Of a DNA stretch of 64,000 bases, positions 14,820-64,000 are shown in pieces. A model generated the notes under the pieces. That model was not told the DNA's origin and did not search any database. It worked only from the letters and a program-made list of their open reading frames with translations. Origin of the DNA: Panorpa germanica (taxonomy: Eukaryota > Arthropoda > Insecta > Mecoptera > Panorpidae); contig OY783207.1 of NCBI GenBank assembly GCA_963678705.1, positions 23,410,001-23,474,000 on the forward strand. Direction: 5' to 3'. Position 1 is the first letter of the stretch, and every line of letters starts with the position of its first letter. A program made the translations under genes and the position numbers.

Positions 14820-15435
14820 ACCTAAACTTTTAAACCCGCTATATTCCATATCCTGTCTATCACTAAGCACACTGGCCACCCGTTGGCAACACCACTCCAT
14901 TTTTCACCAAAACTCTGTACAAATTATTTCTGCAGGCCTCCGTTTCTGTACATTGGAAGATCAAATGTTCTGGATCTGCTACCCCTTCTCCACAATTACA
15001 CATATCTTCTTGCACCAAGTGATTTCTTTTAAGATGTGCCAATGCCCCTGTATGGTATACCCTCAGTAACACTCTTCTCGGACATTGGGCTTTCCACCAC
15101 CAACGACGTCCGCACACCGAAGACTGTAAACTGAATTTTTTTCTTCCTTTCTCTGAATTATTCCACATACCCTGCCACTTCTCTTTCGCTTCATTTTTGC
15201 TCTTTGCCAATAAGTCGACTTCATATTGAATTTCTCCACTTGCTACTGTTCTAGCTGCTTGTTGTGTCCTGTGATCCTTTGTGAGCTGGAATCCTCACTT
15301 ACGGTACATCGCATTCTTTCATCTTTATTCTATTTAGATTTCTTCTTACTGTATAAAATATATTTCACGCTTTTCTGCTTCACCACTGCTTTTGACAGGT
15401 CCTCAAATAATTCGCTATATTTTAGAAGATATTAA
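14820..15435 (-). mobile_element. LINE ORF2 C-terminal relic with RNase H-like trace
   Basis: The minus strand first shows VRIPAHKGSQ (about 15300-15270), resembling the W(V/I)PAHxGIxGNE motif of LINE RNase H domains. It is followed by a frame open from 15210 to 14863. That frame contains TGALAHLKRNHL and the zinc-knuckle-like CNCGEG...PEHLIFQC, typical of the end of R1/jockey/I-type ORF2 proteins. The RNase H part has stops, so it is degraded. No 5' half or poly(A) end was identified. Confidence 0.7.
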
Positions 15436-29164: not shown

Positions 29165-29860
29165 TTTTATTTTTTTAATGTTTTTGCCATTTGGCACTAC
29201 ATTCTTGTGCCTTAACTCATTTATATACATGTCATTGTGCTTAATTCAATTTTGATCCTTATTAAATCTAAACATTCTCTTTTTTTTTCAAACGAAAAAA
29301 AAAATATGTATAAAATTCCTTATAAAAATAAAAACAAAACTGCTACTGCTTCGATCCTCCTGCTACTGTCCCTCCTGTTTCTACTCTGCCATTCCTTCTC
29401 TTTCCTAGTTTTTTTTTCTCTATCTCCGCCATCCACCTCTTCCCTTCACTTTCGGCATTACATTCTTCTGCCTTAAAAAGATTTAAAAAGCTTCAGCCTT
29501 CCTTCTTCTAATTATTTCTGCCATCCATCTGTTCCCTTCCTTGCCCCCTTTTAAGAGCTGCCCAATATTCATCTCACTCCCTACTTTTTCCTTATAATCA
29601 AACTTAATGTGCTTCAGTGTTTCGTCCTCCGTTCTGCACACTCTACACATTTCTTCCTTACTACTTTCCCAGTATCTGTTTCCTTCTTTCTCATTTCCCA
29701 ATCTAAACCTTGCTGTCCTTATGTTTTTTATGTCTTTTTCTATTAAGTACTGAGGTATATTACTTTCCCAAATCCTTTTATATCTTAGAGTAGAGGGAGA
29801 GTGAAGCAACATAGTTTTTTTTAATTTATTTTTTTGTAAGAACACTAAATAATTTTTTTA
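29165..29860 (-). mobile_element. LINE 3' relic, longest copy in window
   Basis: The minus frame 29845-29483 (120 codons) reads ...ARFRLGNEKEGNRYW, then the zinc-knuckle-like MCRVCRTEDETLKHIKFDY, and ...GGKEGNRWMAEI. This is the C-terminus of a non-LTR ORF2. About 300 bp of 3' untranslated sequence follows (29165-29480). Related pieces lie at 5781, 10064, 35880 and 62630. No reverse transcriptase core is present. Confidence 0.75.
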
Positions 29861-51999: not shown

Positions 52000-52482
52000 T
52001 GCAGATCATATGAAAAAGAAAACTGCAATTGATATTGGTGTTACGCCATATTGATTTGATCTTAATTCTACTGTTTTTCTGAGTTAGAAGTTACATCTTC
52101 TTGATTTAAGTAATTTTTATTAATATTAATTAATAAAGGTTTGTACAAATATAAAATAAATATATTTAATTCGTGATACATTTTTCTAAGCTGTAAGTTT
52201 GTATAGCTGAAATGTTCATAATAATTTTTTGTTAAAGACATTTATATGTTACATAATTTGTTATAATTCATCTAAGATATTATTAATTTTAGAAATAACT
52301 GCTTAAGTAATTAAACTAGCAAGTTATTAACGCAGATTTAGTATTCTACAATTATTTAATTTATTACTTTTATATTAACAAAAGTTTTTACTACTTGTCA
52401 AAAACATAACCTCAATATAATTAGACATTTGATTTACAATACTTTAATATCTATTGTAATTAAGTTTCTTAATATAATTTAG

Positions 52483-52876
52483 ATGATGCAGACAGTACTT
52501 CTAAATGGAAAGGGTTCCATGGCATTAATTGTACGCGTTACGCGGAGAAATATTGGAATTGTTGCTCCTGCACTTCAAAAAGCCAAAGATCCAATTCAAA
52601 ACTTATTCGTCTCTAAAGTAAGAGAATATCAACAAAAAAGCGGGTACGTAAATTAACATTAATTGTACTTAACTTAGTTATTATATTATTTCTTAACATT
52701 TAATATCATTTAGGGGTAAACTTCTGGATCCATCACCTGCAATCCAAAAGGAACTGAAATTTGAACATGAAAAATGCGAAAAACTTTACGGTGGTGGGGC
52801 TGGAGTTAATTTGGAAGAATTTCCAGAATTCAAGTTTGTTGAACCTACAGTTGATCCCATTAATCAACAAGCCTAG
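52483..52876 (+). CDS. ATP5PF: ATP synthase coupling factor 6, mitochondrial (ATP5PF / F6)
   Basis: Coding exons 52483-52643 and 52714-52876 (70 bp intron, donor gtacgt, acceptor atttag, phase 2) give 107 residues. An acceptor-like tttag abuts the ATG, so a 5' untranslated intron is likely. After a basic presequence (VRVTRRN-IGIVAPAL) the mature part begins near residue 35: DPIQNLFVSKVREYQQK, SGGKLLDPSPAIQKEL, KLYGGG, EFPEFKF, VDPI. All are hallmark positions of coupling factor 6, and the length is usual (human 108, fly 106). The protein belongs to the peripheral stalk of F1Fo ATP synthase in the inner mitochondrial membrane, holding F1 still while the rotor turns. It is followed 613 bp downstream by a diverged tandem paralogue on the same strand. 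Either of the adjacent ATGs (52483 or 52486) may start translation. Confidence 0.95.
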
Positions 52877-53489
52877 ATGTTGAATATTTTAAAGCTTTCT
52901 GCAGAGGCTCAATCAGACACCTAAATACTCTAATGCCATCTAAAATGAAGAGTATGCAACGTACCCATAAACAATTGTAAATTAGAACAGCTGTAATGAT
53001 ATATTTAAATATTATATAAAACTTTCAAAAACCATTTCTATCTTTTACATTACCTATATCATTCTGTTAACATTACCAGAATATATGAACAAATATAAAA
53101 AAGAAACATACAAATAATACACTTTTTCTAGTTACTTAATTTGAATGCACCGCTACTAATTTAACTTTTAGTTCAGTTGTATTCTTCTTCCTAAATCAAT
53201 TTTTTGAATCTACAGATATATCAATATTTGTTAAATCTAACTTTTACTGGAGTAAAAGCACATTATTTAATATTTTTATTTGAATCTATAAAATACTCTT
53301 AAATTAAAAAGACTGCTACGATATTTAAAAACAAGTGCCATGACATTATTTTTCTAATATTATTATTTACATATGTTAGATACTTTAGATACAATTTAAT
53401 ATTTAATACAATAAATAATTAGTCATACCAAAAACAGTTTAATTGGAAGCAGGTATATCACACCGAAAAGCAAGCAAATGTATAGATAA
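52877..53489. other. Spacer between ATP5PF and its paralogue
   Basis: 613 bp of AT-rich sequence holding the 3' end of ATP5PF and the presumed promoter of the next gene. No TATA box or core motif is convincing. Just before the next start lies ATG-TAT-AGA-TAA (53478-53489), a three-codon upstream frame whose stop directly touches the main ATG. Confidence 0.5.
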
Positions 53490-55737
53490 ATGAGTTGTCT
53501 AAATATATTAAGACAAATAGCAAAAAATAAAAGCTTCAAATGGAAAATAATATTTCTTGATAAAAGAACCTTTGCTGAAAAACCGAAACCACCTGGAGCC
53601 GCAGGAACACCACCCGCAGCTGGTGGTGGTTCAAAACCAGGTGACAAACCTGGAGACAAACCAGGAGCTAAGCCACCAGCAGGAGGAGCTAAGCCACCGC
53701 CAGCAGCTGGAGCTAAGCCACCGCCAGCAGCAGGAGCTAAGCCACCGCCAGCAGCTGGAGCTAAACCACCACCAGCAGCCGGAGCTAAACCACCACCAGC
53801 AGCCGGAGCTAAACCACCACCAGCAGCCGGAGCTAAACCACCACCAGCAGCCGGAGCTAAACCACCAGCTGGCGGAGCGCATCCACCACCGCCACCAGCT
53901 GGTGGAGCTCATCCACCACCGCCACCACCAGGAGGTAAGCCACCAGCTGGTGGAGCGCATCCACCACCGCCACCACCAGGAGGTAAACCACCACCTGGTG
54001 GAGCGCATCCACCACCGCCACCACCAGGAGGTAAACCACCAGCTGGTGGAGCGCATCCACCACCGCCACCACCAGGAGGTAAACCACCAGCTGGTGGAGC
54101 TCATCCGCCACCCCCAGCAGGAGGAGCACACCCACCACCACCACCAGGAGGAGCACATCCTCCACCGGGAGGAAAACCTCCAGGTGCAGCTCATCCACCC
54201 GGAGGAAAGGCTCACCCACCCGGAGGAAAGCACCCACCCGGAGGAGCACATCCGCCTGGCGGAGCTCACCCACCTGGAGGAGGCCCTCCACCTATAGGAG
54301 CCGCACCAAAAAAGCAAAAAGCTACATATACGATAGATATTCAAAATGATTTTGTTCAAGGATTATTTTTGCAAAAGATTTTGGAATATCGAGTGCAAGC
54401 CGAATACATGTAAATAATCATTTATTATTCAATTATCTGTAAGACATTCTATTATCCGCCTGCTTGACAAAAAAACCGTGATACAATGATACGTGATATA
54501 ATGATTTAATCTATTTAATATTTATTTAATTATTTGACTTTAAATCGGATTATAAAGATACTTTACAATCCTTTAAACCTTGACAAGATCTTAAGAAATT
54601 GTATAAATTTATTAATACGAAGAAGGTAGTAGATATATTTTTTGAGTAATAAAAATAGGTCACAAATTTTATATCTTTTTATGTTAAATATACTTTAAAT
54701 AAACTGTGATCTAATAATTTATTATAAATATAATTCAAACAGTCTCGAAAATAAATAAACTTAACGCGAAAACCAAAATTCAGTCAAAATAAAAACATTT
54801 GTTAATAAGAACTGTAGCATTTTAACTTACTTTCAGTCGATGGAGATTGCTTGATCCAACACCCCAAATAATTGAAGAGCGTAACCATGGAATACACACT
54901 GCCTTGAAACATTACACGAAGGAAACTGAGGCAAAATATACAATATTTCCAAGACTTGATTTCCCGCCACCGGTCCTTGATCCCATTGATGAAGTTGCAA
55001 CTACAGAAACTAAGAAAAAGATCGAATTATCCGTATTTTTGGAAGCTACTGGTGAACTTGATCCTAAAGCTATACTGAGTATGCTTGATGGAGAAATACC
55101 AAAGACACCCCCTCCAGCAACTGGTGCACCTCCAGCAGCTGGTGCAGCACCAGGAAAACCAGGAGCACCTCCAGCAGCCCCAGGGAAGCCAGGAAAACCT
55201 GGAGCAGCTCCAGCAGCTGCTGCAGCCCCAGGAAAACCAGGAGCACCTCCAGCAGCCCCAGGGAAGCCAGGAAAACCAGGAGCACCTCCAGCAGCTGGTG
55301 CAGCCCCAGGGAAACCGGGTGCAAAACCAGAAGAAAAGGGGAAGCCAGGAGCAAAACCACCAGCTAAGCCAGCAGCAGAAGCAAAAGGAAAGCCAGGAGC
55401 AAAACCACCAGCTAAACCAGCAGCAGAAGCAAAAGGAAAGCCAGGAGCAAAACCACCAGCTAAACCAGCAGCAGAAGCAAAAGGAAAGCCAGGTGCAAAA
55501 CCACCAGCTAAACCCGCTGCTCCTCCAGCGGGAGGAAAACCTGGAGCTGCACCACCAGCTAAACCAGGAGCAGACGCAAAAGGAAAGCCAGGAGCTAAAC
55601 CTGCATCCGCTCCACCAGCTGGCGCAAAACCCGCAGCCAAACCGCCGGCAGGTGCTAAACCTGGATCCGCTCCACCTGCTAAAGATGCTAAACCAGGAGA
55701 TAAAGATAAGTCTGGAAAGCCTCCTGCAAAGAAATAA
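53490..55737 (+). CDS. Coupling factor 6-like protein with long Pro/Gly/Ala-rich arms
   Basis: Exons 53490-54409 and 54837-55737 (427 bp intron, donor gtaaat, acceptor ctttcag, phase 2) give about 606 residues. Residues 1-31 (MSCLNILRQIAKNKSFKWKI...DKRTFAEK) form a basic presequence-like start. Residues ~32-276 are low complexity: first GAKPPPAA-type octamers, then GGAHPPPPPPGGKPP-type repeats rich in His. Residues ~277-360 match coupling factor 6: DFVQGLFLQKILEYR, RRLLDP-like RWRLLDPTPQI, FPRLDF, LDPID, with the intron at the homologous codon. Residues ~361-400 are predicted helical and unique (KKIELSVFLEATGELDPKAI). Residues ~400-606 are a GKPGAKPPA / AEAKGKPGAKPPAKPA-rich, Lys-rich tail. 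Inference: a tandem duplicate of ATP5PF, mitochondrial, perhaps tissue-restricted like the fly coupling factor 6-like paralogue. Function of the arms is unknown. Other open frames across the arms are shadows of the GC-rich repeats. Confidence 0.85.
53640..54300 (+). repeat. Coding tandem repeats, His/Pro/Gly arm
   Basis: 24 bp units encoding GAKPPPAA dominate 53660-53870. They are followed by ~45 bp units encoding GGAHPPPPPPGGKPP until about 54110, then shorter GGAHPP / GGKHPP units. GC content is far above the rest of the window. Near-identical neighbouring units (ccaccagcagccggagctaa) point to recent unit duplication. Confidence 0.9.
55110..55700 (+). repeat. Coding tandem repeats, Lys/Pro/Gly arm
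   Basis: Imperfect units encoding APPAAPGKPGKPG (55150-55310), then three near-identical 48 bp units (about 55360-55500) encoding AEAKGKPGAKPPAKPA, then degenerate copies. Composition differs from the first arm: Lys instead of His. Confidence 0.9.
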
Positions 55738-55781: not shown

Positions 55782-55787
55782 AATAAA
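55782..55787 (+). terminator. Poly(A) signal of the coupling factor 6-like gene
   Basis: AATAAA 45 bases after the stop codon. A second AATAAA lies at 55847-55852. Both fall in the 214 bp between this gene's stop and the stop of the convergent POLE gene. Confidence 0.55.
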
Positions 55788-55951
55788 TTCAGACTATTGC
55801 ACAGTTTACAGTTAGTAATTTACACCAACTACTAAAACCAGAAAAAAATAAATAACTTTTAGAAAAAGAAAGCCTGTATTTAAATGTTGATTAAAAAAGA
55901 TAACACTTGATATTTTGTACATTTCAAGAAATAATATACAAAAACAATTAT

Positions 55952-64000
<8,049 letters not shown>

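Follow-up and report, generated by a model that had tools for sequence, protein, structure and literature searches.

A coupling factor 6 paralogue with two long Pro/Ala/Gly/Lys-rich arms in Panorpa germanica, a candidate armed peripheral-stalk subunit of ATP synthase

What is encoded by the long two-exon gene that directly follows the gene for coupling factor 6 (F6), a peripheral-stalk subunit of mitochondrial ATP synthase, in Panorpa germanica? The question is raised by a 64-kb stretch of contig OY783207.1 (positions 23,410,001 to 23,474,000; hereafter the window), in which exons at 53490–54409 and 54837–55737 on the plus strand join into 1821 nt, that is 606 codons and a stop in a single frame. 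The intron between them (54410–54836, plus strand) is of phase 2, with a GT donor (CAT/GTAAAT) and an AG acceptor (TTTCAG/T). A TAA codon stands directly 5′ of the ATG at 53490, and an earlier start for this frame would need another exon. The neighbouring ordinary F6 gene lies 613 bases away on the same strand, with exon 1 at 52483–52643, a phase-2 intron at 52644–52713, and exon 2, including the stop codon, at 52714–52876. Its 107-amino-acid (aa) product matches the Pfam family PF05511 (E = 1.3e-26), and its best match in PDB is brine shrimp F6 (E = 3.1e-22; human F6, E = 2.8e-14). The in-frame junction, the GT/AG borders and the F6 neighbour at 52483–52876 bear out a sequence-only reading of the locus, which had proposed a two-exon gene of about 606 residues directly after ATP5PF.

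The middle of the predicted protein is, by homology, a relative of F6. The F6-like core is divided between the exons, with the helix-1 motif DFVQGLFLQKILEY encoded at 54330–54409 and the remainder (RWRLLDPTPQ...FPRLDF..PVLDPI...) at 54838–54999, both on the plus strand. The joined core matches PF05511 with E = 0.00037 and 21.3 bits, below the curated gathering cut-off of 27.9 bits. A construct without the arms scores slightly better (E = 0.00015, 22.5 bits) and the whole 606-aa protein lower (E = 0.0065, 17.3 bits). Against PDB, the core gives four matches at E up to 10, the best being the brine shrimp F6 chain 9b0x_L (E = 1.8e-4) and the next an unrelated protein (E = 0.18). The end of exon 1 alone reaches only E = 0.098 against PF05511 and exon 2 alone gives no match to that family, so the match of the joined core also supports the splice; the possibility of two separate Pro-rich genes was rejected, as the F6 match requires both exons. 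Compared with the ordinary F6 neighbour, the core is identical at 24 of 72 aligned residues (33%). Its Smith–Waterman score with that neighbour is 89, the maximum among 5000 shuffles of the core being 52. With a local F6 hidden Markov model (HMM) the core scores 32.9 bits (shuffle maximum 12.7; 4485 of 5000 shuffles scored), and when the window's own F6 is left out of the model it scores 20.7 bits (shuffle maximum 10.2; 4437 scored). Significant homology, as judged by the shuffles and by 9b0x_L, spans most of mature F6 (72 aligned residues), in agreement with the core of about 80 residues that the sequence-only reading had aligned with it.

The core shares its helix-1 motif, its FP..F tail and its intron phase with canonical F6, as represented by PF05511, the gene at 52483–52876 and chain L of 9b0x, and its DPI motif is also present in the window's F6 and in brine shrimp F6. 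The introns of the two genes lie within one codon of each other relative to the LLDP motif, with three whole codons between intron and motif in the paralogue and two in ordinary F6. Canonical F6 in this window differs in being an armless precursor of about 107 aa that has kept middle-helix invariants lost from the paralogue. Descent from F6 is indicated by the homology of the joined exons, the same intron phase at nearly the same place, and adjacency to the F6 gene. A recent duplication was rejected, as the best blastn match between the two loci has only E = 0.027 over 33 bases.

Two long low-complexity arms flank this core. The N-terminal arm (residues 36–276; 53595–54317, plus strand) is built of repeats such as GAKPPPAA and GGKPPAGGAHPPPPPP, and 235 of its 241 residues are P, G, A, K or H; its net charge is +19, and it contains a single residue of the set F/W/Y/I/L/V/M. 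The C-terminal arm (residues 400–606; 55114–55734, plus strand) consists of Pro/Ala/Gly/Lys repeats, with 194 of 207 residues in P/G/A/K/H (429 of 448 for both arms together), a net charge of +30 and none of the hydrophobic or aromatic residues just listed. The lengths are close to the 245 and 200 residues, rich in Pro, Gly and Ala, that had been estimated earlier. On composition, both arms would be disordered. No 15-base word is common to the two arms, or to the arms and the rest of the window, so that the arms look like separate expansions of similar composition; one arm as a recent same-strand copy of the other was rejected on this ground. Between the F6-like core and the C-terminal arm lies an acidic, non-repetitive linker (residues 362–399; 55000–55113, plus strand) that is not found in the aligned F6 sequences. 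It is predicted with low confidence to be partly helical, and a Pfam comparison at E up to 1 gave no match to it.

Other reading frames are also open across the arm repeats, and an open frame alone is therefore no proof of coding. The repeat periods given by Tandem Repeats Finder (TRF) are multiples of three. Six repeat arrays were picked from TRF rows, in most cases the row with the highest score in its stretch (for the array at 54188–54281, a row scoring one point better was passed over), and 39 of the 80 columns that vary among their repeat copies fall at third codon positions (P = 0.003). In the four arrays without indels, a subset chosen after the six-array result by the TRF figure of 0% indels, the share is 20 of 28 variable columns (P = 4e-5). 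Since repeat units are copied together with their changes, these columns do not count as wholly independent. The third-position bias supports translation of the arms, and a gene derived from F6 with translated arms is very probably what the locus contains.

The residues that the product has kept bear on whether it would still dock in the stalk. Twenty-two columns are invariant in five F6 sequences (the window's own, brine shrimp, human and two nearly alike PDB chains), and the paralogue retains 11 of them: seven of nine in helix 1, none of eight in the middle and four of five in the tail. The difference between ends and middle has a Fisher P of 0.001, for a grouping chosen after the data were seen. 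In the published account of the brine shrimp enzyme, F6 residues Q8 and F11 are proposed to touch Y183 of OSCP, and the hydrophobic contacts around the C-terminal domain of OSCP are said to involve F11, L12 and I15 (PMC12325954). The residue letters given there agree with the numbering applied in the present alignment. The paralogue is identical to brine shrimp F6 at all four of these OSCP-side residues, and the ordinary F6 neighbour has valine at two of the four positions. This retention is the best hint in the sequence of a product that still docks in the stalk, and the balance tips moderately towards its entering ATP synthase.

The N-terminus (residues 1–28; 53490–53573, plus strand) is basic and ends in KRTF/AEK, which makes it a candidate mitochondrial presequence. 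Residues 1–31, MSCLNILRQIAKNKSFKWKIIFLDKRTF/AEK, contain eight K/R and two D/E. We take KRTF/AEK to be a mitochondrial cleavage motif of the R-3 type; a motif of this type occurs once in the whole protein, at residue 26. Descent and motif together make mitochondrial import of the product likely.

Enlarged stalk paralogues have been described in Drosophila. Knon (knotted onions, CG7813) is reported as a testis paralogue of the 178-aa stalk subunit d and has 734 aa; its extension of 532 aa is charged and predicted to be disordered (PMC5364652). According to the same source, Knon is located on spermatid mitochondria and is required for Nebenkern structure, and its expression in flight muscle lowers the dimer-to-monomer ratio of ATP synthase. 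A testis F6 of 147 aa, compared with 106 aa for the ordinary form, is also described there, and mutation or knockdown of Knon and testis F6 blocks mitochondrial elongation in spermatids, knockdown being the case given for testis F6 (PMC5364652). In the light of these lengths, the view, held in the sequence-only reading, that coupling factor 6 is of constant size needs some correction. The Panorpa paralogue resembles Knon in being a stalk-subunit paralogue with a very long charged extension, and in the divergence of its core (33% identical to the ordinary subunit; 32% in Knon). It differs in that it derives from F6, not from subunit d, in carrying two Pro/Ala/Gly/Lys arms instead of a single C-terminal E/K-rich extension, and in its tandem arrangement. 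It likewise resembles the Drosophila testis F6 in being an F6 paralogue longer than ordinary F6, whereas the latter is merely about 41 aa longer, and is described as intronless and away from its parent gene, the Drosophila stalk paralogue pairs being reported as not near each other in the genome (PMC5364652). A testis-enriched F6 is listed elsewhere as CG12027, in a table that appears to give two exons (PMC551531). The kept intron and tandem position here, compared with the intronless and distant copy in Drosophila, point to probably separate duplications of F6, as far as gene structure can stand in for a tree. Coupling factor 6 is also reported from seminal vesicles in a honeybee drone-gland proteome, of which the available text makes no mention of arms (PMC4425483). 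Among the best-matching open-access papers, no long-armed coupling factor 6 is described in titles or abstract openings. Armed peripheral-stalk paralogues are already known as a kind, Knon being the described case; a core of stalk-subunit type with long, presumably disordered extensions places the present protein among such Knon-like enlarged paralogues, and its F6-based form would be new.

The locus could best be explained by an old tandem duplication of the F6 gene, one copy of which has become a specialised subunit of the peripheral stalk. The product of this copy would be imported into mitochondria, would dock through the kept first helix, on OSCP, and through the kept C-terminal tail, and would replace ordinary F6 in a subset of ATP synthases. 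The two long, basic and presumably disordered arms would act as bristles that space neighbouring enzymes or alter their dimerisation, which in turn would change the curvature of the inner membrane. With more than 200 residues each at the F6 site, the arms would be expected to part the stalks by excluded volume, or to loosen dimers or alter their angle, as has been suggested for Knon; being positively charged, they might also attach to the acidic inner membrane. The stalks of a Polytomella dimer are reported to touch at a distance of about 80 angstroms from the membrane, which agrees with where subunits d and h/F6 lie, and yeast subunit h is said to be able to stabilise ATP synthase dimers (PMC5364652). 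The proposal of the sequence-only reading that the arms would stick out from the stalk in a special tissue is plausible and closely precedented. The suggestion from the same reading that they tether enzymes fits less well, since precedent best supports extensions of this sort that impede or remodel dimerisation. By precedent, the likeliest tissue would be the male germline, with its spermatid mitochondrial derivatives, and flight muscle the second. Taken as a whole, from an armed stalk subunit in the male germline to altered spacing or dimerisation, we give this explanation an even chance.

Several results weigh against it. The main hint against docking in the stalk is the middle helix, in which every counted F6 invariant has been lost, and the score of the joined core remains under the Pfam cut-off. 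As a helix, the N-terminus shows no excess of amphipathicity over its own shuffles, 1101 of 2000 of which score as high. Modelled by itself with AlphaFold2, exon 2 (residues 308–399) gives a poor structure, with a predicted local distance difference test score (pLDDT) of 63.3 and a predicted template modelling score (pTM) of 0.21, and a Foldseek search with it gave four matches at E up to 10 and none at E up to 0.001. In the two arrays with indels, at 54188–54281 (6 of 13 variable columns) and 55328–55601 (13 of 39), the third-position bias, counted in an ungapped register, is weak or absent.

The loss of all eight middle invariants, together with strongly basic arms (net +19 and +30) and a new acidic linker, would also fit a matrix protein that has departed from ATP synthase. 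The F6 core would then be a relic, and the arms would bind membrane lipid or nucleic acid, or else form a scaffold in the matrix, for example the dense material of sperm mitochondrial derivatives. Such a departure, which we regard as unlikely, is opposed by the selective retention of the first helix and the tail, with the four residues reported near OSCP among those kept. An armed stalk subunit might instead serve in flight muscle, its Pro/Ala-rich arms ordering densely packed mitochondria or cristae. The arms are similar in kind to the Pro-Ala-rich extensions of troponin-I or tropomyosin, which are likewise long extensions on a subunit of an ordered array and are thought to order the myofilament lattice (PMC4657346). 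Those extensions, however, belong to myofilament proteins with cores unrelated to F6 and are not mitochondrial. Reports on D. melanogaster also describe its oxidative phosphorylation (OXPHOS) duplicates as testis-biased (PMC2241641) and place the action of the Drosophila F6 and d stalk paralogues in spermatids (PMC5364652), and a flight-muscle role appears distinctly unlikely.

The duplicate could also be dead or scarcely expressed, with repeats that arose by slippage and have no function. Tandem repeats expand readily, the core is far diverged (24 of 72 residues identical), and the arrays with indels show little codon bias. It is nevertheless hard to reconcile decay with 606 stop-free codons, usable splice sites, kept F6 contact residues, and repeats whose periods are multiples of three and whose copies differ mainly at third codon positions; we consider it quite improbable. 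Finally, the two genes may share exons: exon 1 of ordinary F6, if spliced to the second exon of the paralogue, would yield an F6 with the ordinary presequence and a single arm. The in-silico junction of 52483–52643 to 54837–55737 is in frame because both introns are of phase 2. Between the two closely spaced genes, AATAAA/ATTAAA hexamers occur solely at 53303 and 53410; a search of 53289–53489, upstream of the paralogue, gave no TATA-like pattern. Exon sharing seems highly improbable; the paralogue possesses a start codon of its own and a possible presequence.

The surroundings of the armed F6 paralogue add a few observations. In insects, the NRG element is reported in just one of the paralogues in 214 of 215 cases (PMC2241641). 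An NRG-type 10-mer (RTTAYRTAAY; GTTACATAAT) lies upstream of the ordinary F6 gene at 52248–52257 on the plus strand; five such 10-mers occur in the window and none between F6 and the paralogue, a placement that fits NRG loss in duplicates. This evidence is weak because TTAYRTAA, the palindromic 8-mer core of the element, occurs 39 times in the 64 kb (22 expected; 0 of 100 shuffles reach 39). Downstream, an AATAAA at 55782–55787 (plus strand) lies 45 bases 3′ of the paralogue's stop codon, with a second at 55847; AATAAA or ATTAAA occurs about five times per kb on the plus strand of this AT-rich window. Tail to tail with the paralogue is a gene for the catalytic subunit of DNA polymerase epsilon (minus strand), which probably extends over about 55955–63753. 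Two of its open reading frames (ORFs), 56937–57851 and 63031–63753, were compared with Pfam and one with PDB, identifying it through PF08490 (E = 1.6e-107) and a PDB match (E = 1.5e-112); this neighbour marks the stretch as nuclear DNA, evidently of an animal.

Outside the paralogue, the window contains 158 stop-to-stop ORFs of at least 60 aa. Those at 14866–15294 and 29486–29857 (both minus strand) have cysteine/histidine patterns, which we take to resemble the C-terminal part of non-LTR reverse transcriptases; neither has a Pfam match at E up to 0.01. Sixteen further ORFs of 94–125 aa in 1–41100 also match no Pfam family at that threshold, and this stretch may therefore be gene-poor.

Knon is one case that ties an armed stalk subunit to mitochondrial shape, and it bears on how cells remodel their mitochondrial inner membranes by altering the packing of ATP synthase. 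A two-armed, F6-based stalk subunit may have evolved independently of Drosophila Knon, giving at least two animal origins of a stalk bristle that controls packing, a prospect that we hold only tentatively and at somewhat less than even chances. If so, different subunits and unrelated disordered sequences would have given rise to the same kind of bristle, with two arms, alike in their Pro/Ala/Gly/Lys-rich composition and unlike in their repeats, grown here on both sides of the core. The two proteins would then offer a natural test, in which the stalk is the same and both the subunit and the arm chemistry differ, and with a second armed subunit of independent origin, what is now a curiosity would become a general mechanism.
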